Shown piece after piece: positions 12,729 to 64,000 of a DNA stretch of 64,000 nucleotides. Made by a program: the position numbers and the translations under genes. Source of the stretch: Spirochaetaceae bacterium (lineage in GTDB: Bacteria > Spirochaetota > Spirochaetia > Treponematales > Breznakiellaceae). The stretch covers positions 1 to 64,000 of the forward strand of contig JAITER010000092.1 in NCBI GenBank assembly GCA_031281945.1. The letters are read 5' to 3'. The notes under the pieces are model-generated. The model had not been told where the DNA came from, searched no databases, and saw only the letters and a program-made list of their open reading frames with translations. How positions within the stretch are numbered: the first letter of the stretch is position 1; each line of letters starts with the position of its first letter.

Positions 12729-13637
12729 ATGGATTTAATTTCCGGTTTTATTGATTATATGCAATCTATTCGTTCAGTTTCTCCGCAAACGGTAAAAGCT
12801 TACCGCCACGACCTTAAACAGTTCGCTTTGTTTTGCGAGGATGCCGGAGTAATGCCGGAAAACGCTGAATTCCACATGGTTGAGCGGTTTATTGCGGATT
12901 TAAGTTTTTCCGGCCTTGCCGCTGTTAGCGTTAATCGCGCTCTTTCAACTTTGCGGGGTTTTTTTGGGTGGCTTATTAGGTTTGGACGCCGTAAAGACGA
13001 TCCTTGCGCGTTAATAAAAAATTTAAAAACGCCGAAAAAATTGCCTGTTTTTTTGTGGGAAGATGAAATGGCGGATTTTGCGAAAACGCCGGAAAATTTT
13101 GGATTGCTTTGGGAAAAACGGGATTCTGCGTTAATTTTATTGCTTTATTCAAGTGGAATGCGTATTTCCGAAGCTATGAGTTTGACGCTTTCTTCTCTAA
13201 AAACAGATTACAGCGGAGCGCGTATAATTGGGAAAGGCGCTAAAGAAAGAGTGGTGTTTTTTTCGGATGAGTGCCGGGCGGCTTTATGCGCATACTTGCC
13301 GGAAAGAGAGGCGTTGTTAAAGGAAACCGGCGGAAAATCTCCCGTAAAAACGGTTTTGGAAAAGCGATTGTTTTTGAATAAACGGGGGGCCGCCCTTTCT
13401 CCGGCGGGCGCTAGATGGATTATAAGCCGTTATTCCAGTTTTTCTAGCGTCAAAAAGAACGTTCATCCCCATGCTTTGCGCCACACTTTCGCAACCAATC
13501 TGCTAAAAAACGGTTGCGATATTAGGCTTGTGCAGGAATTGTTGGGACACGCCAATATTTCCACAACGGCGCGTTATACGCACCTTAACATAGAAGGCCT
13601 AAAAGAAACTTACCGTAAAGCCCACCCTCATGCATGA
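12729..13637 (+). CDS. Xer-type tyrosine recombinase
   Basis: 302 residues from ATG 12729 (M-D-L-I-S-G-F-I-D-Y), preceded by an aagga ribosome site; a longer frame upstream is unlikely. The N-terminal SAM-like domain (S-P-Q-T-V-K-A-Y-R-H-D-L) spans about 1-90. The catalytic domain shows the first Arg in S-S-G-M-R-I-S-E-A-M-S, a G-K-G-A-K-E-R-V-V beta-hairpin Lys, H-P-H-A-L-R-H-T-F-A-T, L-G-H-A-N-I-S-T-T and the nucleophile Y-T-H-L. This is a standard XerC/XerD-like length and layout for chromosome dimer resolution. There is no IntI-specific insertion visible, so I do not treat it as the integron integrase. Confidence 0.88.
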   Translation: MDLISGFIDYMQSIRSVSPQTVKAYRHDLKQFALFCEDAGVMPENAEFHMVERFIADLSFSGLAAVSVNRALSTLRGFFGWLIRFGRRKDDPCALIKNLKTPKKLPVFLWEDEMADFAKTPENFGLLWEKRDSALILLLYSSGMRISEAMSLTLSSLKTDYSGARIIGKGAKERVVFFSDECRAALCAYLPEREALLKETGGKSPVKTVLEKRLFLNKRGAALSPAGARWIISRYSSFSSVKKNVHPHALRHTFATNLLKNGCDIRLVQELLGHANISTTARYTHLNIEGLKETYRKAHPHA

Positions 13638-54801: not shown

Positions 54802-56931
54802 TTGAAAGACAAAATATTAATAGCTCTCGCTGGAAATCCCAACAGCGGAAAAACTACGCTGTTTAACGCTTTTACCAAAGCGCATCATAAAGTTGGAAAC
54901 TATCCTGGAGTAACTGTAGAAAAAAGAGAAGGAATTGTTAAACGCGGCGGGACGGCGTACCATTTTGTAGATTTGCCCGGCGTATACAGCCTTACCGCTT
55001 ACTCGGAAGATGAGGTTGTGGCTCGCAATTTTATATTGAACGAAAAACCGGATGTTATTATTGACGTTCTGGATTCAACCAATCTGGAGCGCAACCTTTA
55101 CCTGTTTCTGCAACTTCAGGAATTGGGCGTTCCTATTGTGGGCGCGTTGAATATGTCGGACGAAGCGGACAAAAACAAAATAAATATAGACGAAAAAAAA
55201 CTTCTGGATAAATTTGGAGCGCCCTTTGTAAAAATAATAGCGCAACATAGTAAAGGTCTGGCCGGCCTATATGACGCGATTAATCAAGTTGTCGCCGAAA
55301 AGCCGGCGGAACCCGTATTAGCCCCCAAAAATATTTATGATGTTGAAATCGAGCAAAAAATAAGCGATCTACAAAATATAATCCAGGGGAATGTTAAAAC
55401 GACCGGCTTGAATTTGCGATGGCTCGCTATAAAATTGCTGGAAAAAGACGCCGATCCTCTTGTGTTGTCGCAAGCCGGATCGGATGGTTTTATGATAGAA
55501 ACCGAATCTCAAAAAATTATAAATTGGATGGAAGACAGGTTTGGCGGCGACAGCGAAATTATAATTTCTGAACAACGTTACAAATACATAAGTGAAGCCG
55601 TTGAATACGCCGTAAGAGCTTCTTCCAAAACAAATTTTTCCATAACAAAAAAGCTGGATAATGTATTTATGAACCGGTTCCTCGCCTTGCCTCTGTTTGC
55701 CGGTATATTGTGGTGTGTGTTTCAAATAACATTTACAATAGGCGCGTATCCCCAGGAGTGGTTGGAAACCTTCTTTGGCTTTCTTACAGACGCCGCAAAT
55801 AATTCTATGGAAGACGGTCTTTTGCGAAGTTTGATTGTAGACGGCGTTATAGCGGGCGTGGGCGGAGTTTTAAGTTTTCTGCCGCTGGTTGTAATTCTGT
55901 TCCTTCTAATTTCTATTTTGGAAGATTTTGGCTATATATCCCGCGCCGCATACGCGACGGATAAACTATTGCATACCGTAGGATTGCATGGGCAGTCGGT
56001 TTTCCCGATGATGCTGGGTTTTGGCTGCTCTATTCCGGCGGTTATGGCTTCTCGCACATTAAAAAGCAAGCGCGACAGAATTATCACGGTGTTGCTTACG
56101 CCAATGATGAGTTGCGGGGCTAAATTGCCAATACATTTGATGATAGCCGCCGCTTTTTTCCCGGAAAACGCTGGAAATATGGTGATGCTCATCTATCTGT
56201 GCGGAGTGTTTCTCGCGGTTTGTTCCGCCATGCTGTTGCGTGTAACAGTCTTAAAAGGCGATCCCACGCCGTTTGTTCTGGAGTTGCCGCCCTACCGCCT
56301 GCCGACAATTAGCGGCGTTCTTTGGCACGTATTTGAAAAATCCTGGAGTTATGTAAAGAAGGCGGGAACTATTATTTTGGCTACAACAATCCTTGTTTGG
56401 CTTATTACCACTTTCCCCGCTTATGAACTTGACGGCGCTCAAAGAGAAGAATTCGTATCAACTTATCTTTCGGAAAACCCGGAAGCGAATGATGAAGAAC
56501 TTGAAGGACGTCTAAAAACCATTGAAGCAAAGTCCGGGCTAGAAAATAGTTACGCTGGGCGTATAGGTAAAGTGATTGAGCCTATTTTTAAACCGCTTGG
56601 TTTTAATTGGCAGATTTCGATTGCGGTTATTACTGGTTTTGCGGCCAAAGAAGTTGTTGTCTCTACGTTAGGCGTTTTATATAGCGTAGGTTCTGAAGAA
56701 ACTGAAGAAAGCGAAGAATTGCACGCCGTTTTTGCCGCGGAATCTGGTTTAAACAAACTGGGCGCTTTTACGTTTATGCTGTTTATGTTGCTTATTCCCC
56801 CTTGTTTTGCGGCTTTGGCGGTAATTAAAGCGGAACTCGGCTGGAAATGGCTAGGTTTTGAATTTGTGTTTCTGACTGCATTCGGCTGGTTTGTTAGCTT
56901 TCTTGTATTTCAAATTGGGAGTCTTTTATGA
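54802..56931 (+). CDS. feoB: ferrous iron transporter B
   Basis: 709 residues from a TTG start with ribosome site aaggag. The N-terminal G domain has G-N-P-N-S-G-K-T at 11-18, D-L-P-G near 58 and N-M-S-D near 119. A helical GDI-like part follows. The membrane domain begins near 290, with gate motifs G-F-G-C-S-I-P-A near 410 and A-P-M-like T-P-M-M-S-C-G-A-K near 430. It imports Fe2+ across the inner membrane, powered by GTP. Its end overlaps the small Cys-rich gene by 4 bp. Part of its 3' half (56027-56155) is duplicated at 59170. Confidence 0.96.
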   Translation: MKDKILIALAGNPNSGKTTLFNAFTKAHHKVGNYPGVTVEKREGIVKRGGTAYHFVDLPGVYSLTAYSEDEVVARNFILNEKPDVIIDVLDSTNLERNLYLFLQLQELGVPIVGALNMSDEADKNKINIDEKKLLDKFGAPFVKIIAQHSKGLAGLYDAINQVVAEKPAEPVLAPKNIYDVEIEQKISDLQNIIQGNVKTTGLNLRWLAIKLLEKDADPLVLSQAGSDGFMIETESQKIINWMEDRFGGDSEIIISEQRYKYISEAVEYAVRASSKTNFSITKKLDNVFMNRFLALPLFAGILWCVFQITFTIGAYPQEWLETFFGFLTDAANNSMEDGLLRSLIVDGVIAGVGGVLSFLPLVVILFLLISILEDFGYISRAAYATDKLLHTVGLHGQSVFPMMLGFGCSIPAVMASRTLKSKRDRIITVLLTPMMSCGAKLPIHLMIAAAFFPENAGNMVMLIYLCGVFLAVCSAMLLRVTVLKGDPTPFVLELPPYRLPTISGVLWHVFEKSWSYVKKAGTIILATTILVWLITTFPAYELDGAQREEFVSTYLSENPEANDEELEGRLKTIEAKSGLENSYAGRIGKVIEPIFKPLGFNWQISIAVITGFAAKEVVVSTLGVLYSVGSEETEESEELHAVFAAESGLNKLGAFTFMLFMLLIPPCFAALAVIKAELGWKWLGFEFVFLTAFGWFVSFLVFQIGSLL

Positions 56932-57080
56932 ACATGGAAGTTGCTGTTGTGGGGGCTATAGTTTTAGCCTCCGCTGTATTTTTGGCGGCGCGTGTTGTAA
57001 AAACGTTTGCCTCTAAAAGCCCGGGCTGTTGCGGCGGCCCCGGAAAAAAATGTCCGCATTGCGCAAAAAGTAAAATTTAA
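56928..57080 (+). CDS. FeoB-associated Cys-rich membrane protein
   Basis: 50 residues, overlapping the feoB stop (ATGA). One membrane helix (V-A-V-V-G-A-I-V-L-A-S-A-V-F-L-A-A) is followed by a basic segment and S-P-G-C-C-G-G-P-G and C-P-H-C motifs. This is the small FeoB partner seen at the end of many feo operons; its cysteines may bind iron during transfer. A second, fused remnant of it lies at 59299-59394. Confidence 0.9.
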   Translation: MNMEVAVVGAIVLASAVFLAARVVKTFASKSPGCCGGPGKKCPHCAKSKI

Positions 57081-57202
57081 GGTTGCTCAAGGCGTTTAGG
57101 TTTTGGATCGCCGCCGCCGGCAACCTCGAATCAATCCTGGACGTCGATTAAAAAAACCGCCGCCTGTCGTGAAGCCGGTGCGGACGATGGCGCGGGCGGA
57201 CT

Positions 57203-59023
57203 TTACGACACCATCCCTTCATACACGAGGAGTAGGCCGCCGTCAATGGTTACGTTGAGGCCGGACTCCAGTTTCCGGGTCGCGTTGTGAACGCCGGTAA
57301 GCCACACGAGATTCGGATTCACCTGTTCCATTACAGCGTTGACAATATGGCAGTGTCCCTCGCAGATTACGCCCTGGACAATCCGTAGTATCGGGATATA
57401 GTCGTTGGTCAGCGCCGGGCATACGAGAATATTGCCGCCGTCCGCTTTGATGATCTGCCGGGCCTCCTCCGCCGTTTGCGCCCGCACGATTTTACCGTTG
57501 GCGCGGGGGACTTTTTCATTGACATGGCCGCCGGACGCGCTACGGGCGAGTACGTTGCCCATAATCAGAATGCGCACCGTGTTGATAGGCAAGGGACTGT
57601 GCAAGGGCAATCCCGCCGTGAGCACGATTTTATCGGAAATTCCAGCAAGGGATGTCGCGGCTAAAATCTGTAGCGCGTTTTGGATCATCTCATCCGAGTG
57701 TAGCGCGGTTTTTGTCTGTTTCGGGATGACGCCCCAGTCAAGCTGCATCGACCGGCACGCCCGCGCGTCAGGGGTTACGGCGAGAATTGGCTGTTCTGGC
57801 CGCCACATGGCGATTTGCCGCGCTGTGCTACCGGAAGTGGTCGGGGTGAGGATGATTTTTGCCTCCAGCGCGAGCGCGATTTCATAGGCGCTGCGCGATA
57901 TGACCCGCGCAATGTCGTTTTTGTGCGTGGCCGCATCATGGGACAGAGCCGCCGAATTCCTGATGTGCGTCCGGTACTCGGCGGACTGTTCAATCGTGGA
58001 GGCAATTTTCACCATCGTGGTAACGGCTTCCACCGGGTACGCCCCGCTCGCCGTTTCCCCTGATAGCATTACCGCATCACTGCCGTCAAAAATCGCGTTG
58101 GCGACGTCGGTTAGCTCGGCGCGGGTCGGACGCGGGTTCACAATCATTGAATCAAGCAACTGTGTCGCCGTAATGACCGGCTTGCAGTGCCGCCGCGCCG
58201 CCGTGATAATTTTTTTCTGCGCCAGTGGTATCTGGTCGTCCGGTATCTGTACGGCCAGATCTCCGCGCGCCACCATGATGCCGTCCGCATGAGAGGCTAT
58301 GGCCTCGATATTGTCCAGTCCTTCCTGACTTTCAATTTTTGCAATAATCCGCGCCGGCCAGCGCAACGAGCGGATATAGTCGCGGATTTGCGTTACCTCG
58401 TGCGGAAAACAGAGAAAACTCGCCGCGATAAAGTCCATCTCCTGCGCCGCGCCGAACTCAAGATCCTTCCTGTCCTGTTCGCTGATGATGGGAAGCCCCG
58501 AATGGACGCCGATAAGGTTGACATTTTTCCGGCTGCCGATTTTCGCGTTGTTTGCGGCCCGGCAGGTAACTGTTTTCCCATCGCTTTCCAGGACGTCAAG
58601 CTCAAACAGCCCGTCGGCGATAAGTATCCGTATCCCCGGCGTGACGCGGGCGGCAATGTCCTGCCATGTCAGCGAAACACGTCCCGGTTCTCCCGGCTGG
58701 GCGGGCTTGGTAAAACCGCCGTCTGTCGAGACGATTACCGTGTCGTTTTTTTTGAACTCGACAACGCCGCCACCCTCGACCAGTCCCGTCCGGATTTCCG
58801 GCCCCTTCGTATCGAGCATAAGCGCGACCGGCAAATCCGCTTCCTCAGAAAGCCGCTTGACCCGCTTGATACGCTCCTCATGATCGGCATAATCGCCATG
58901 GGAAAAATTAAACCGCGCTACGTTCATACCCGCATAGAGCATTTTGCGTACGGTTTCGTCACTATCGCACGCCGGCCCCATCGTACAGACAATTTTTGTC
59001 TTTCGAAAATACCGATTATTCAT
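57203..59023 (-). CDS. pyk: pyruvate kinase
   Basis: 607 residues from ATG 59023 (M-N-N-R-Y-F-R-K-T-K-I), which is chosen because T-K-I-V-C-T-M-G-P is the usual N-terminus. Key motifs are present: N-F-S-H-G near 38, D-T-K-G-P-E-I-R-T-G near 70, A-K-I-E-S-Q-E-G near 225, M-V-A-R-G-D-L-A-V near 246 and V-M-L-S-G-E-T-A-S-G near 315. An extra C-terminal domain of about 100 residues resembles the PEP-utilising mobile domain of long pyruvate kinases. It converts PEP and ADP to pyruvate and ATP. By eye the gene is clearly richer in G and C than its neighbours and lies inside a duplicated feo segment, suggesting it arrived from elsewhere. Confidence 0.93.
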   Translation of the reverse strand: MNNRYFRKTKIVCTMGPACDSDETVRKMLYAGMNVARFNFSHGDYADHEERIKRVKRLSEEADLPVALMLDTKGPEIRTGLVEGGGVVEFKKNDTVIVSTDGGFTKPAQPGEPGRVSLTWQDIAARVTPGIRILIADGLFELDVLESDGKTVTCRAANNAKIGSRKNVNLIGVHSGLPIISEQDRKDLEFGAAQEMDFIAASFLCFPHEVTQIRDYIRSLRWPARIIAKIESQEGLDNIEAIASHADGIMVARGDLAVQIPDDQIPLAQKKIITAARRHCKPVITATQLLDSMIVNPRPTRAELTDVANAIFDGSDAVMLSGETASGAYPVEAVTTMVKIASTIEQSAEYRTHIRNSAALSHDAATHKNDIARVISRSAYEIALALEAKIILTPTTSGSTARQIAMWRPEQPILAVTPDARACRSMQLDWGVIPKQTKTALHSDEMIQNALQILAATSLAGISDKIVLTAGLPLHSPLPINTVRILIMGNVLARSASGGHVNEKVPRANGKIVRAQTAEEARQIIKADGGNILVCPALTNDYIPILRIVQGVICEGHCHIVNAVMEQVNPNLVWLTGVHNATRKLESGLNVTIDGGLLLVYEGMVS

Positions 59024-59164
59024 TTGTGCTATTATAACGGTACAGGGTGTAAAAAAGCAAGAAAATAGCACATTTAGGTGAAAATAGACGTGATAAAAAG
59101 GAAAAAAGCGCGTTTATTTGAAAAACAGCCCGCTCGACCGGAGGGTGACGGCAAGGCTCCGTGA

Positions 59165-59435
59165 ATTCCCGCTCTATTCCGGCGGTTATGGCTTCTCGCG
59201 CATTAAAAAGCAGGCGCGGCAGAATTATCACGGTATTGCTTACGCCAATGATGAGTTGCGGGGCTAAATTGCCAATACATTTGATGATAGCCGCCGCTGT
59301 ATTTTTGACGGCGCGTGTTGTAAAAACGGGCGTCTCTAAAAGCCCAGGCTGTTGCGGCGGCCCCGGAAAAATTGCCGCATTGCGCACAAAGTAAAATTTA
59401 AGGTTGTTCCAGCCGTTTAGGCTTTGGAGCGCCTG
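59165..59435 (+). pseudogene. collapsed second copy of the feoB/Cys-rich gene tail
   Basis: 59170-59299 repeats feoB 56027-56155 with few changes; 59299-59435 repeats 56979-57115 (end of the small Cys-rich gene and its 3' flank). The intervening 823 bp are missing, with a shared CCGCT at the junction. The remnant reads as one open frame joining part of the FeoB membrane domain to the end of the Cys-rich protein, but it has no proper start and lacks most of FeoB. Between 59436 and 59583 nothing else is recognisable. Confidence 0.88.
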
Positions 59436-59583
59436 CGACGCCGGCGGTCAACGATGATTTTACCGTAAAATCGATAAAATCCGCCAATGGATGCGCTTCC
59501 ACGCAACGCCCGGTTTGTGATTTCTTACCCTTGGTATGAATAATCTTTCCGGGCTTGCGGTTTTAATGTTTTAAACCGTGATT

Positions 59584-59612
59584 TTGACAATTTTGTTGTA
59601 ACAAAGTAGAAT
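59584..59612 (+). promoter_or_regulatory. consensus-like promoter of repeat D, copy 1
   Basis: TTGACA (59584-59589), 17-bp spacer, TAGAAT (59607-59612). The spacer holds TTTGTT-GT-AACAAA, a 6-bp-arm inverted repeat that could bind a repressor. Transcription should begin near 59619, the same place as the ATG. The other copy has the same boxes and spacing at 61093-61121. Confidence 0.75.
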
Positions 59613-59618
59613 GATTTT

Positions 59619-60035
59619 ATGCTTTTGAAGCCGGCGGGTAAAAAGATAGATCGTTTTCCACGGCTCGTAAATCAAAACGGGCGGCGTGTCAAGCCCCCCC
59701 CCCCCCCCGCTCTCTCATTTCCTGAAAATATTCTGTCTGGTCGCCCCTGTCTCGCATTCAGGCGCCGTTATGCTTCATTTTTAAACCAATACGCCCTGTT
59801 CACGGGCAAAAACTCTTCATTTTTCAACAGATTCACCAACTCTGAGTTATTGCGGCGATGCAGTAAAGACATGAGGCGCCGTCCGTCTTTACGCATCGTA
59901 AAAGAATGGGCCGCTTGCATTGCGCGAAGCCGGGTAAAGAATAATAAAAAGCTTATTCGGCTTTGCGGTCGCTTTACATTGTCTTCTGATAGCGGGGCGT
60001 CTGGAGCGAAAGGAGGCGGGCGGCGAACAGAATAA
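59619..60035 (+). CDS. putative leaderless ORF with in-frame poly-C tract
   Basis: 138 codons, beginning at the expected transcription start, so no ribosome site is possible. The frame goes through 15 C at 59694-59708 (encoding Pro), then a basic, Arg-rich region: P-E-N-I-L-S-G-R, F-R-R-R-Y-A-S-F-L-N-Q, F-F-N-R-F-T-N-S-E-L-L and V-K-N-N-K-K-L-I-R-L. No family is recognised. The other copy has 14 C and is out of phase. Translation is unproven; the conserved sequence might instead be a structured RNA, or be read on the minus strand. Confidence 0.3.
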   Translation: MLLKPAGKKIDRFPRLVNQNGRRVKPPPPPALSFPENILSGRPCLAFRRRYASFLNQYALFTGKNSSFFNRFTNSELLRRCSKDMRRRPSLRIVKEWAACIARSRVKNNKKLIRLCGRFTLSSDSGASGAKGGGRRTE

Positions 60036-60077
60036 ATCTATTTGAAAGGGACGGATATTCAGTATACGGGATTCGCG

Positions 60078-60103
60078 GCGTATACAATATGGTTATGCGA
60101 CAT
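60078..60103 (+). other. attC/attI-like right half-site, repeat D copy 1
   Basis: GCGTATACA (L'-like, 60078-60086), a 5-bp spacer, then GTTATGCGAC (R'-like, 60092-60101). The core GTTATG is where integron integrases cut (after the G). The following DNA differs between the two repeat D copies exactly from here on, as expected of a cassette boundary. Confidence 0.6.
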
Positions 60104-60234
60104 AAAACCCTGAAGTTTCCGGAATTGAAAGACGGCGGAGTTCATGCCGCCGCTACGGAATACACTGATAACGGTTTTATGAATTTCAACACATAATCTT
60201 AAATACTTTGTTGTCAAAGTGGAGAAGAAAAAAA
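60101..60234 (+). repeat. cassette leader repeat E, copy 1
   Basis: About 122 bp nearly identical to 63315-63447: cataaaaccctgaagtttcc, gacggcggagttcatgccgc, gaatacactgataacggttt and cttaaatactttgttg. In both places it lies between an attachment site and a lipoprotein start. It contains CGGCGGAGTTCATGCCGCCG, which can form a hairpin. Confidence 0.88.
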
Positions 60235-60807
60235 ATGGCAAATAAAAACAGATTTTGGAAAATGTTTGCGGCGGTTCTGGTGTTCGGAATGGTTTTACTT
60301 GGTTGTCCCAATGACACGACCGGGGAAAAATATGACGTATGGTCAAACGTAACAGATTTGAACCAATTGAATGGGACATGGAAAGGTTCCTATAGTCAAA
60401 CCCAGACTATAAAAGAAATGATTGTGGCTCTAGGCGAGACATGGGAGGAGGGAATGTCTACAACGTTTGGTGATATGAAAGTAACCACCTTGACGGAAAT
60501 AACCACAACCATTAAGTCAGCCGATAAAACGCAGTCTTTTTCCTTTAAAATTACAATGACATTTTCCGGCGGGAATATCGACACGGCATGGACAATGATA
60601 AAAGAAGGTTTCAACTCTGAAAGCTATACAATTGATGACAGCAAGCATTCCATAACCACGCAATACGGCCATGATTTACCAATTAAAGACGAGGATATAG
60701 CGAAAATGCTGAAAGGTTTTCAGATAAATCAAAACGGGACAAAAATGAAAATCCCCGCAGACGATATGAGTGAAGGTTCACCGGAAGTGGTGATGATCAA
60801 ACAATAG
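60235..60807 (+). CDS. cassette-borne lipoprotein
   Basis: 190 residues from ATG 60235 (M-A-N-K-N-R-F), with tggagaag upstream. Lipobox V-L-L-G-C (Cys about 22). The mature part has L-N-G-T-W-K-G-S-Y, a phrase often seen in lipocalin-like or beta-barrel small domains of treponemal lipoproteins, and a Thr/Lys-rich beta pattern to the end. Family unknown. It is the first gene after the repeat D half-site and ends 49 bp before an R''-L'' half-site, as a gene cassette would. Confidence 0.75.
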   Translation: MANKNRFWKMFAAVLVFGMVLLGCPNDTTGEKYDVWSNVTDLNQLNGTWKGSYSQTQTIKEMIVALGETWEEGMSTTFGDMKVTTLTEITTTIKSADKTQSFSFKITMTFSGGNIDTAWTMIKEGFNSESYTIDDSKHSITTQYGHDLPIKDEDIAKMLKGFQINQNGTKMKIPADDMSEGSPEVVMIKQ

Positions 60808-60856
60808 GGAAAGCCGCCGCGCCGTCCGCAGTGTGGCGCTTCGTAGCAGATTTTAC

Positions 60857-60880
60857 GGCGCATAACAGGACTGTTTACGC
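60857..60880 (+). other. attC-like left half-site without its right half
   Basis: GGCGCATAAC (R'', 60857-60866), a 4-bp spacer, CTGTTTACG (L'', 60871-60879). The expected L'-R' partner within about 130 bp is missing. L'' does match the GCGTATACA of repeat D copy 2 (one mismatch), 700 bp away at 61586. Between 60880 and 61090 the DNA is GC-rich, with short inverted repeats (GCGGCGC ... GCGCCGC) and no gene. Confidence 0.6.
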
Positions 60881-61090
60881 TACGCCTACAGTAGCGGGCT
60901 TGGCCTCCATTCGGCTAGGTCAGTCGCTACGCTCCTTCCCACGCCTCATTCCGGCACATTTGGGCGGCGCAAAACCCTGCGGCTTTCTTTATAGCGCCGC
61001 CCAAACGCCGCATACCGCTGAAACGCCGTCCGTGCAAGCATGTTTTGTAATCCTTGCGGTTGTCATTACACCCCGCAACAAATCGCAAGC

Positions 61091-61611
61091 ATTTGACATT
61101 TTTGTTGTAACAAAGTAGAATGATTTTATGCTTTTGAAACTGGCGGTTAAAAAGATAAAGCTTTCACAGTTCGTAAATCAAAGCGGGTTGTGTGTCAAGC
61201 CCCCCCCCCCCCCGGCCAGCCTCATTTCCTGAAAACATTCTGTCCGGTCGCCTCTGTTTCCCATTCAGGCGCCGTTATGCTTCATTTTTAAACCAATACG
61301 CCCTGTTCGCGGGCAAAGACTTTTCATTTTTCAACAGATTCACCAACTCTGAGTTATTGCGGTGTTGCGGTAAAAACGGGAGGCGCCGTCCGTTTTTACG
61401 CATCATAAAGGAATGCGCCGCTTGCGTAGCACGAAGCCAGGTAAAGAATAATAAAAAACTCATTCGGCTTTGCGGTTGCTTTACATTGTCTTCTGATAGC
61501 GGAGCGTCTGGAGCGAAATGAGGCGGGTGGAGAACAGAATAAATCTATTTGAAAGGGACGGATATTTTAGTGTACGGGATTCGCGGCGTATACAATATAG
61601 TTATGCGACAT
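61091..61611 (+). repeat. ~520-bp repeat D, copy 2
   Basis: Mirror of copy 1: TTGACA 61093-61098, 17-bp spacer with the same inverted repeat, TAGAAT 61116-61121, ATG 61128, poly-C at 61200-61213 (14 C), L'-like GCGTATACA 61586-61594 and R'-like GTTATGCGACAT 61600-61611. The DNA after it goes into the rmuC-like cassette instead of the lipoprotein leader. Confidence 0.9.
61128..61521 (+). pseudogene. out-of-phase copy of the poly-C ORF
   Basis: From ATG 61128 the frame is the same as in copy 1 up to the tract, but 14 C plus a 2-bp change after it put the conserved downstream part one base out, and a TGA comes within about 20 bases. With 13 or 16 C the conserved frame (P-E-N-I-L-S-G-R ... S-D-S-G-A-S-G-A-K) would be open. 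So it is either a phase-off state or a broken copy. Confidence 0.35.
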
Positions 61612-61664
61612 TTTTTCTGAAAATTTTTGAAGTAGTTGACTAATTTGTATGTTTTGGAGGATGT

Positions 61665-63164
61665 ATGGACTTAAATATTGTTATTGAATTGGCAATTTTG
61701 GCAGTGGTAATTATACAATTTATTGTAATAATTATACTTCTTGCAAAGAATAGGCAAGGATTACAGAAGTTGATAGAATACGATGACCAACTTGATAAAA
61801 ACAAATCAGGCATTGAATCAAGTCTCCGTGACGAATTCGGTAGAAACCGAGGCGAACTATCACAATCACTCAAAACTGTTTCTGAACAATTATCAACCAC
61901 AATAACAAACTTTACCGGACTAGTTGATAATAAAATTCAATCTATATTGAATTCATTGACAACATCGTCAAAATCGAACAGAGATGAACTAAATAAAACA
62001 ATCATCACCTTTGAAGAAAAAGTGACCAGAATTTTGAATACAGAATTAAAATCTGTTCAGGACGGAGTAAACCATTCAACGAAAGAAAGTCGTGAAGAAC
62101 TAGCTGCTTCATTGAAGCAATTTGAGGAGAAGTCATCAGCAAAGATAGAAGCTTTAACAAAAGACACCAGGGAAGGGCTTGAAAAAAATCGCGAAACTGT
62201 TGAAAGAAAGCTTGCGGAAATTCAGACAGGAAATGAGGCAAAGTTGGATAAAATGCGGGAGACGGTTGATGAAAAGTTACAAAAAACCCTCGAAGCACGG
62301 CTAAGCGCTTCATTCAAACAAGTAAGCGACGATCTTGAAAAAGTGCAAAAAGGGCTTGGAGCAATGCAAAATCTCGCATCAGACGTTGGTGATTTGAAAA
62401 AGGTAATGTCTAATGTTAAAACGAAGGGGGTTTTAGGCGAATATCAACTTGAAGCAATTCTTGAGCAAATGCTTCATCCAAGCCAATATGAGAAAAATGT
62501 AAAAACAAAAGTTGGTAGTGATAAACATGTGGAATTCGCCATTAAAATTCCGAGTAAGGAAGATTCAGATAAAAATGTCTGGCTGCCTATTGATGCAAAA
62601 CTACCTACCAGCAACTATGAAATTCTCATGGAAGCTTACAATAATGGAGACAAAGAAGCCGTTGAAAATGCGCGAAAGGCTTTTTCAAAAACTGTTAAAA
62701 ATTTTGCAAAGGAAATCAAGGAAAAATATATTGACTCACCGAATACCACCGATTTTGCGATAATGTTTTTGCCATTTGAAGGCGCGTATGCGGAGGTTGT
62801 ACGTGATCCTGAGCTTTTTGAAGGAATACAGAGAGAACATAAGATTATTGTTACTGGTCCATCTACGATAGCAGCATTTTTAAATGCGCTACAGGTAGGT
62901 TTTAGAAGCTTGGCTGTAGAAAAGGGAACAAGTGTTATTTTGAACACCTTAAGCGCTGTAAAGAAAGAATTTGGAAACTTTGAAAATATCCTGGTCAAGG
63001 TAAAAGATCAGATTGATAAGGCAAGCGCTACATTGGATGAAACCGTTGGTAAACGAACAAAAGCAATAAACAAGGCATTGAAAAAGGTTGAGACCTTATC
63101 TGATGATACTGTGGGGCAAAAATTATTAGTAGATGTTTCTTCTGATTTAGAAGAAACAGAATAA
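61665..63164 (+). CDS. rmuC: RmuC-family protein carried in a cassette-like segment
   Basis: 499 residues. An N-terminal membrane helix (I-A-I-L-A-V-V-I-I-Q-F near 8-28), then a long coiled coil to about 245, then the RmuC core: K-G-V-L-G-E-Y-Q-L-E near 255, D-A-K-L-P near 305 and F-L-P-F-E-G-A-Y-A near 360, with G-P-S-T-I-A-A-F-L-N near 398. RmuC proteins limit recombination between inverted repeats and have a nuclease-like fold. The gene has a strong tggagg ribosome site, is AT-richer than its neighbours and lies between the half-site at 61600 and the full attC at 63189. Confidence 0.92.
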   Translation: MDLNIVIELAILAVVIIQFIVIIILLAKNRQGLQKLIEYDDQLDKNKSGIESSLRDEFGRNRGELSQSLKTVSEQLSTTITNFTGLVDNKIQSILNSLTTSSKSNRDELNKTIITFEEKVTRILNTELKSVQDGVNHSTKESREELAASLKQFEEKSSAKIEALTKDTREGLEKNRETVERKLAEIQTGNEAKLDKMRETVDEKLQKTLEARLSASFKQVSDDLEKVQKGLGAMQNLASDVGDLKKVMSNVKTKGVLGEYQLEAILEQMLHPSQYEKNVKTKVGSDKHVEFAIKIPSKEDSDKNVWLPIDAKLPTSNYEILMEAYNNGDKEAVENARKAFSKTVKNFAKEIKEKYIDSPNTTDFAIMFLPFEGAYAEVVRDPELFEGIQREHKIIVTGPSTIAAFLNALQVGFRSLAVEKGTSVILNTLSAVKKEFGNFENILVKVKDQIDKASATLDETVGKRTKAINKALKKVETLSDDTVGQKLLVDVSSDLEETE

Positions 63165-63188
63165 GAAAATTACTGTAGCAGAAAAAAC

Positions 63189-63315
63189 GTCGCATAACAG
63201 GTCTGTTAACGCTTCGGGCCTAAAGGCCCTCGGGGTTCCGGCTGACTAGGTCATTTCGCTTCACTTCATTTCCAGGGCCGCCAAACCGTCGTAAACAGCC
63301 GGAACGTTATGTGCC
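63189..63315 (+). other. complete attC-like recombination site
   Basis: R'' GTCGCATAAC (63189-63198), L'' CTGTTAACG (63203-63211), a 78-bp central region with GGGCC-TAAA-GGCCC pairing, L' CGTAAACAG (63290-63298), R' GTTATGTGCC (63306-63315). R'' and R' pair through GCATAAC/GTTATG; L'' and L' pair with one mismatch. This is the two-simple-site layout of integron attC sites, about 127 bp long. It lies 25 bp after the rmuC-like stop. Confidence 0.75.
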
Positions 63316-63447
63316 ATAAAACCCTGAAGTTTCCGGAATTGAAAGACGGCGGAGTTCATGCCGCCGCTACGGAATACACTGATAACGGTTTTATGAATTT
63401 CAACACATAATCTTAAATACTTTGTTGCCAAAGTAAAGGAGAAAATA
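63315..63447 (+). repeat. cassette leader repeat E, copy 2
   Basis: Second copy of the leader at 60101, starting directly at the attachment-site core and ending at the lipoprotein start. It differs by only a few bases, mostly beside the ribosome site (aaaggag here). Confidence 0.88.
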
Positions 63448-63645
63448 ATGGCAAATAAAAAATTTGGGCCGGTAATGCTGGCGATAATGTTTCTGGCATT
63501 TGGTTTGATGCTGACTGGTTGTGATGATGGCGGCGACAGCGGCGGTGGAAATGGAGACGGTGTTGCAGCGGCGTTAACAGTAAATAATTGCCCTTCAAGC
63601 GCCACATATGACATAAATAAAGGAGGTTTTTATGGACAATATTAA
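63448..63645 (+). CDS. truncated lipoprotein
   Basis: 65 residues only. The signal peptide and lipobox L-T-G-C (Cys25) are good, and a Gly/Asp linker follows (C-D-D-G-G-D-S-G-G-G). The mature domain stops after about 20 residues with G-G-F-Y-G-Q-Y, inside the ribosome site and start of the following gene. It looks like the front end of a treponemal lipoprotein cut by the arrival of the downstream NTPase gene. Base composition changes sharply at about 63605. Confidence 0.6.
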   Translation: MANKKFGPVMLAIMFLAFGLMLTGCDDGGDSGGGNGDGVAAALTVNNCPSSATYDINKGGFYGQY

Positions 63646-64000
63646 GGAACTTGAAATTCTAATGGATGATATTAATGGTCAAATTTCGGATTCTGAAAAC
63701 ATTCCTGACAAAAAAGGTTATCAATATATAGCATGGCATGATTTTCTAAAAAAAACAAAGGAAAAATTGGAAATTGGAACTTATAAATTTGTATTTATAG
63801 GACAAAAAGGCATTGGTAAAACTACGACAATATTGGAATTGTTTGGATTAAATAAAAAAATAAACGGAAAAAATGAGGATTTATTAACAACCGCATCCGG
63901 TGGTACAACAACTTGCGAAGTAGAGTTATTAAAAAGTAATACATCTGTAACATATTTTGAAATAGAACCTATTGATATTCAATTACTAAAACAATACATT
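63632..64000 (+). CDS. P-loop NTPase, partial at the window edge
   Basis: First 123 residues of a longer protein with a strong aggagg ribosome site 5 bp before the ATG. Acidic helical N-terminus, then a Walker A motif F-V-F-I-G-Q-K-G-I-G-K-T-T-T near 53-66. T-T-A-S-G-G-T-T-T-C-E-V-E-L near 86-99 is switch-like, then T-Y-F-E-I-E-P-I. This spacing recalls GTPase/ATPase proteins of bacterial defence islands, but I cannot name the family from the N-terminus alone. Very AT-rich compared with the rest of the window, so probably acquired. Confidence 0.65.
   Translation, partial: MDNIKELEILMDDINGQISDSENIPDKKGYQYIAWHDFLKKTKEKLEIGTYKFVFIGQKGIGKTTTILELFGLNKKINGKNEDLLTTASGGTTTCEVELLKSNTSVTYFEIEPIDIQLLKQYI

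Follow-up and report, generated by a model that had tools for sequence, protein, structure and literature searches.

Integron integrases (IntI) are defined by the I2 helix, which is held to enable them to read folded single-stranded attC sites. Genes are also moved by recombinases of the Xer type: in pdif modules, host XerC and XerD act on dif-like 28-bp sites. Here we analyzed the first 64,000 nucleotides ("the window") of contig JAITER010000092.1 (C77; 85,790 bp) from a Spirochaetaceae bacterium. The genome (2.49 Mb, 99 contigs, 94.9% complete) is that of a termite-gut-type Treponema with dozens of integron-style cassettes, and its system appears to represent a second type of integron. The locus at positions 60,078 to 64,000 of the window is a small integrase-less cassette cluster and a member of this genome-wide integron-like system. 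We consider it highly probable that the system is driven by a tyrosine recombinase without I2, which would act on folded sites.

The I2 helix of canonical integron integrases recognizes extrahelical bases and prevents a second exchange of strands (PMC4792948). Escudero et al. described the origin of I2 as a chicken-egg paradox, in which either I2 or the attC sites were selected first (PMC4792948). In a report on an integron-like subgroup of tyrosine recombinases, the insertion is termed essential for integron function (PMC8138268). Clusters of attC sites without an integron integrase are called CALIN (clusters of attC sites lacking integron-integrases) by IntegronFinder (PMC9024848), and integrative mobile elements exploiting Xer (IMEXs) have been discussed (PMC7790495). 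We found no earlier description of a system like the present one in the literature searched, which excluded preprints and most subscription journals.

The attC-like sites and their cassettes

The sites were collected with a covariance model of our own, built from 15 complete sites, and not with the attC model of IntegronFinder. The model matched 96 places in the genome at E ≤ 1 and 83 at E < 1e-3. The shared plan of the sites is GCATAAC-AGGn-CTGTATGCG ... CGCATACAG-CCGGAAC-GTTATGC, with a length of 70–230 bp and internal stems. Across the initial alignment, 87% of the cells in the R and L arms were paired, as compared with 19–44% when the arms were slid by 1–3 columns, and the pairing showed compensatory A-U/U-A and G-C/A-U changes. 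The L-arm pairing of 142 parsed sites had a single clear register (mean 4.3 of 6 pairs, versus 0.6–2.4 in other registers), and real partners (4.30) exceeded shuffled partners (mean 3.78, maximum 4.05). The R''/R' variants covary (GCATAAC/GTTATGC, ACATAAC/GTTATGT, GCCTAAC/GTTAGGC and GTATAAC/GTTATAC), while the AAC/GTT cores are invariant. The sites therefore possess both features that mark attC sites, namely conservation of the core and pairing of the R arms and of the L arms. Of the 195 genomes sampled from the family, 156 (80%) gave site matches. Among the sampled members of the phylum outside the family, only 10 genomes were matched, and nine of these matches were weak.

An initial annotation of the window, made from its sequence, had proposed a check for attC extrahelical bases. 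In Treponema IntI sites, a fixed bottom-strand G protrudes (PMC3607928). In contrast, L'' has one unpaired base in the present sites, and among 105 that were parsed it was, on the top strand, A in 59, T in 26, C in 18 and G in 2. Because this base is mixed, it is not a fixed bottom-strand G.

Same-cassette complementarity is the strongest evidence for putatively circularisable units. In 51 consecutive site pairs, we compared the pairing of a cassette end with its own start and with the core of the next cassette. The own start was better in 35 pairs and worse in 6, with 10 ties. The mean same-cassette pairing at positions 4–12 was 6.98, as compared with 5.63 for permuted partners (maximum of 1000 permutations, 6.10). 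Moreover, the pairing extends to position 18, so that the first ~18 nt of a cassette match the ~18 nt that end in its own R'' AAC: it was 0.75–0.87 at positions 12–18, whereas that with the downstream core was 0.25–0.45 at positions 13–18. A cassette end that pairs with its own start, and not with the next core, is expected only if the unit circularises.

The 52 distinct cassettes have a median length of 942 bp. Fifty of them contain an open reading frame (ORF) of at least 60 amino acids, and in 47 of these 50 the longest ORF is in the sense orientation. A sigma70-like match (TTGACA-N16-18-TATAAT with one mismatch per hexamer, a consensus match and not a measured promoter) was present in the first 160 nt of 22 of the 52 cassettes; the opposite strand gave 3, and shuffled sequences gave 3.7 (maximum 7). 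Judged by these consensus matches, the cassettes are not mostly promoterless, as those of IntI integrons are. A 780-bp cassette on contig C86 is 93% identical to a cassette in a genome of another genus (G040), and the identity drops at both ends; this sharing argues that cassettes move between genomes. In addition, a palindromic dispersed repeat of the GTTCGGAAACTTCAAGTTTCCGAAC type, common in the genome, was seen inside cassette genes (locus L009, 2640–2759; locus L059, 374–440 and 1500–1566).

We infer from the sequences that the integrase recombines cassettes at G/TT. It would excise cassettes as circles, the circles would be inserted at attI or attC with exchange at G/TT, and integrase-less clusters such as that in the window would be supplied in trans. 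The integrase would act on the folded bottom strand. Folding of this strand is suggested because compensatory pairing spans the cassette ends and because position 11, the exception in this pairing, is in 45 of 52 cassettes a C-A mismatch when read on the top strand but a G-T wobble when read on the bottom strand. Since I2 is absent, a different solution is needed for strand choice and for the half-recombined junction. The extended stem and its wobble may be candidates for part of the role of I2, although this idea is speculative.

It is possible, but in our opinion unlikely, that the recombinase uses the sites as double-stranded Xer-like substrates, as in pdif modules, and that the hairpin is incidental. 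The recombinase is indeed Xer-like and without I2, and the attI-like junctions of the relatives (see below) could be interpreted as a pair of short inverted arms separated by a spacer of 5–6 nt. However, double-stranded substrates are difficult to reconcile with the covariation of arms at distant ends of a cassette, where compensatory changes reach 18 nt, and with a wobble that is specific to the bottom strand. Furthermore, when stability was measured against shuffles, folds of the bottom strand (-3.3) exceeded those of the top strand (-2.4).

The probable recombinase and the arrays

No protein of the genome passed the cut-off of the integron-integrase profile TIGR02249: canonical IntI is not encoded. 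The best match runs off the end of contig C64, and the profile matched it on both sides of a gap. This protein is likely to be the recombinase for the sites, and it is distinct from the genome's own Xer genes (C77:12768 and C1:19799). In a survey of 195 genomes of the family, canonical IntI was found in five and the gapped type of integrase in dozens. We aligned 22 insert-less integrases with three canonical IntI proteins of the family. All 22 were without the IntI-specific segment, and the catalytic residues (R, K, H, R, H and Y) were invariant. The spacing from KG..R to HxLRH was 65–71 amino acids in the insert-less integrases, as compared with 107–110 in IntI, and the insert-less proteins scored below the TIGR02249 cut-off. 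In a tree of 89 recombinases, the insert-less integrases of the family formed one clade (100/100) and IntI another (100/99); alignment columns filled in less than 30% of rows, including the insert, had been dropped. Secondary loss of I2 within the IntI clade was considered and rejected, because the separate clades leave no insert loss inside the sampled IntI, although the sampling was limited. The integrases also carry an N-terminal domain of about 100 amino acids (YLFYE...IPFYDYD...GGYWD; for example, locus L001, 3–1166), which was covered by no Pfam family.

If the arrays had been built by a canonical IntI that was since lost or is missing from the assembly, the locus would be a remnant of an ordinary chromosomal integron. 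In favour of such an origin, the anatomy of the sites is that of attC, canonical IntI occurs in a few other members of the family, and the genome is a draft of 99 contigs. Nevertheless, we regard such a remnant as very improbable. Three single-contig genomes (G140, G138 and G009) possess attC-like sites and only the I2-less integrase. The site model matched nothing in the five canonical-IntI genomes of the family or around their intI genes. Moreover, in the canonical arrays of one IntI genome (G011; 3,239,340 bp), which we take to be T. caldarium, same-cassette complementarity ends at 8 nt, not at 18 nt. A quick look at Vibrio sites as a second canonical control gave no usable pairs. The initial annotation had pointed to the chromosomal integrons of Treponema denticola, which have GTTATG-type cores. 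An equation of the locus with that type is not supported, given the lack of a canonical IntI in the genome, the failure of the site model in the IntI-bearing relatives, and the recombinase beside the arrays of relatives, which belongs to a different clade without the IntI-specific insert.

In relatives, arrays begin about 0.8–4 kb downstream of a same-strand tyrosine recombinase, after an attI-like junction. Of about 19 integrase loci with sufficient downstream sequence, 15 had sites in the orientation of the integrase no farther than about 4 kb from its 3' end. In about 13 relatives, a G/TTA(T/G) junction with a cassette-like start, a candidate attI, was located mostly 30–500 bp past the stop codon. 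For example, in Treponema primitia ZAS-2 (G140; 4,059,867 bp), the integrase (2031211–2032404) is followed by 11 plus-strand sites from 2033215 to 2061618. In these arrays, the integrase has the same orientation as that reported for T. denticola. Wu et al. (2013) reported no trace of integrons in T. primitia and T. azotonutricium (PMC3607928), and the I2-less system would revise this report.

Dispersed repetitive extragenic palindrome-like or miniature inverted-repeat transposable element-like repeats, or terminators at gene ends, are hardly credible as an explanation: the sites do form hairpins and lie on more than 30 contigs of a genome that contains other interspersed repeats, but such elements would not be expected to show same-cassette complementarity, invariant AAC/GTT, one-gene spacing on one strand, linkage to an integrase and cassettes shared between genomes.

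Several observations weigh against an I2-less integrase acting on folded sites. Because the C64 integrase runs off its contig, its attI and first cassette are out of view. At four integrase loci, no downstream site was detected by this model, and at one locus (L084; G107:C136) the insert-less integrase and the sites are on opposite strands. Across the genomes of the family, the occurrence of the integrase did not follow that of the sites. This comparison does not discriminate, because metagenome-assembled genomes (MAGs) are incomplete and few candidates per genome were scored; the link between integrase and sites therefore rests on position, and the true agent could be another recombinase. The shared C86 cassette, our best example, is without its first ~16 nt in this genome. 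Finally, the single-nucleotide L-arm bulge and the pairing could serve another role in single-stranded DNA or RNA. As a separate observation, the orientation at L084 is that of most canonical integrons.

The cluster in the window

The cluster consists of three attC-like sites in about 6 kb, without an integrase of its own, and is placed within a conserved chromosomal region. Its left flank contains feoB (54802..56931, plus strand; TIGR00437, E 1e-180) and a pyruvate kinase gene (57203..59071, minus strand); FlgK and LuxS are encoded on the right. Housekeeping genes lie on both sides, so that the cluster does not form the far end of a long array. Of the two possibilities in the initial annotation, a distal part of an array can thus be abandoned and an integrase-free attC cluster is retained. 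The same annotation had described integron-type cassettes with GTTATG cores, arranged on one strand with one gene each, in a window without an integrase. The site family and the cassette anatomy support this description, the strand and gene arrangement was confirmed, and the sole TIGR02249 match in the window (12768–13589) is an ordinary Xer-like recombinase, which is not close to IntI. With the sites at 60856, 63188 and C77:65682 found by our own model, and no array-type integrase in the window, the locus has the composition of a CALIN (at least two attC sites and no integron integrase nearby). A scan of the window against Rfam matched tRNA alone. Between feoB and the cluster, a fragment at 59171–59440 duplicates parts of feoB (56027–56159, 95%) and of its downstream region (56965–57119, 85–92%).

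Cassette 2 (61600..63198, plus strand) carries an RmuC-family ORF (61665–63164; Pfam PF02646, E 1.8e-71). Its start GTTATGCGACATTTTTTCTG (61600) and its end CAGAAAAAACGTCGCATAAC (63179–63198) are complementary at 19 of 20 nt. The RmuC-family gene also weakly matched the PADLOC defence model RTasRmuC (E 4.5e-10). The complete attC-like site 2 (63189..63315, plus strand) comprises R'' GCATAAC (63192–63198), L', and R' GTTATGT from 63306, and the covariance model gave 125 bits (E = 2.5e-30) over 63188–63318. Because site 2 is one of the 15 sites that built the model, DNA similarity provides the independent support: as a DNA query, it matched 44 other places on more than 25 contigs, the best of them on contig C92 (E = 3e-19). 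The complete site described in the initial annotation is thus real. Folding of this region, which the annotation had also proposed, gave no significant stability (z -1.06 for 63189–63317); the folding signal resides in the pairing across many sites.

Cassette 1 (60092..60866, plus strand) starts with GTTATGCGACAT, contains a lipoprotein-like ORF (60235–60807) and ends with R'' GCATAAC (60860–60866). Site 1 (60856..61037, plus strand; 81 bits, E 1.9e-18) was not among the sequences that built the model, and its bottom-strand fold gave a z of -2.5. It has R'' at 60860 and, near 61008, an L' arm. Its R' core alone is out of place: an inserted copy of the repeat 'E' has shifted it by about 570 bp, to 61600. 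The R''-L'' annotated at 60857 is therefore present, but it belongs to a near-complete site and not to a mere half-site. The two plus-strand copies of the repeat (59583–60103 and 61092–61611) form a direct repeat of about 520 bp, 89% identical, with TTGACA-N17-TAGAAT and a poly-C tract of 14–17 nt. Both end exactly at a cassette core, copy 1 at the first core and copy 2 at that of cassette 2, where it parts the L' arm of site 1 from its core. Delimited in this way, copy 1 spans 59583..60096 and copy 2 spans 61092..61599. Of the L'-R' half-sites placed at 60078 and 61586, the R' cores GTTATGCG at 60092 and 61600 were verified. The L' arms were not, since each core is preceded by a repeat copy and no L' arm.

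Cassette 3 (63306..64000, continuing to C77:65682, plus strand) contains a truncated lipoprotein ORF (63448–63645) and, from 63632, an ORF with a P-loop motif, which appears to be shortened by a dispersed repeat. The model found a further attC-like site past the window (C77:65682–65859), and a 26-bp insertion in that site is at the same point as repeat copy 2 in site 1. Cassettes 1 and 3 share a 157-bp leader with the lipoprotein start (60092–60248 and 63306–63462; 92%) and diverge afterwards.

Other phyla and comparison with known systems

Seonamhaeicola (L195), Algibacter (L197), Mediterranea (L206) and a Firmicutes MAG (L192) likewise encode insert-less relatives, which adjoin regularly spaced repeats with AAC/GTT-like cores. 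Of 17 cassettes of L195, L197 and L206, 14 showed better same-cassette pairing than pairing with the core downstream; in L192, same-cassette pairing was seen by eye. De novo array detection, in which 10-nt cassette-end pairs were chained, was no better than shuffles. Therefore, the evidence from other phyla rests on repeat-defined sites, and generality is a lead more than an established result. We nevertheless lean, with moderate confidence, towards the idea that I2-less recombinases run integron-like arrays in several phyla (Spirochaetota, Bacteroidota and Bacillota), as a second integron class with attC-like sites. If this is true, folded attC sites predate I2 or arose independently of it. 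Natural attC-like cassettes without I2 would make the chicken-egg question of I2 and attC testable, and thus bear on the origins of integrons. Tools that require the IntI-specific domain would miss such systems.

Like a CALIN, the window locus is an attC-like cluster without a neighbouring integrase; unlike a CALIN, it has a probable recombinase elsewhere in the genome, which would not be called IntI. For the insert-less members of the integron-like subgroup, the available text describes no arrays or sites (PMC8138268), in contrast to the present system. An Xer-type recombinase without I2 is shared with pdif/Xer modules. However, the present system differs from these modules by a dedicated recombinase beside the array and by long structured sites (70–230 bp) with cassette-specific arms. 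In layout, it resembles the sedentary IntI chromosomal integrons of T. denticola and Vibrio: a tyrosine recombinase with an adjacent attI-like junction, same-strand single-gene cassettes, and R'', L'', L' and R' elements with G/TT cores. It differs from these integrons in that the integrase is without the IntI-specific insert and forms a separate clade, the same-cassette stem is extended to 18 nt with a conserved C-A/G-T position, the unpaired L-arm base is not fixed as a bottom-strand G, many cassettes have their own promoter-like sequence, and the arrays are scattered over many loci.

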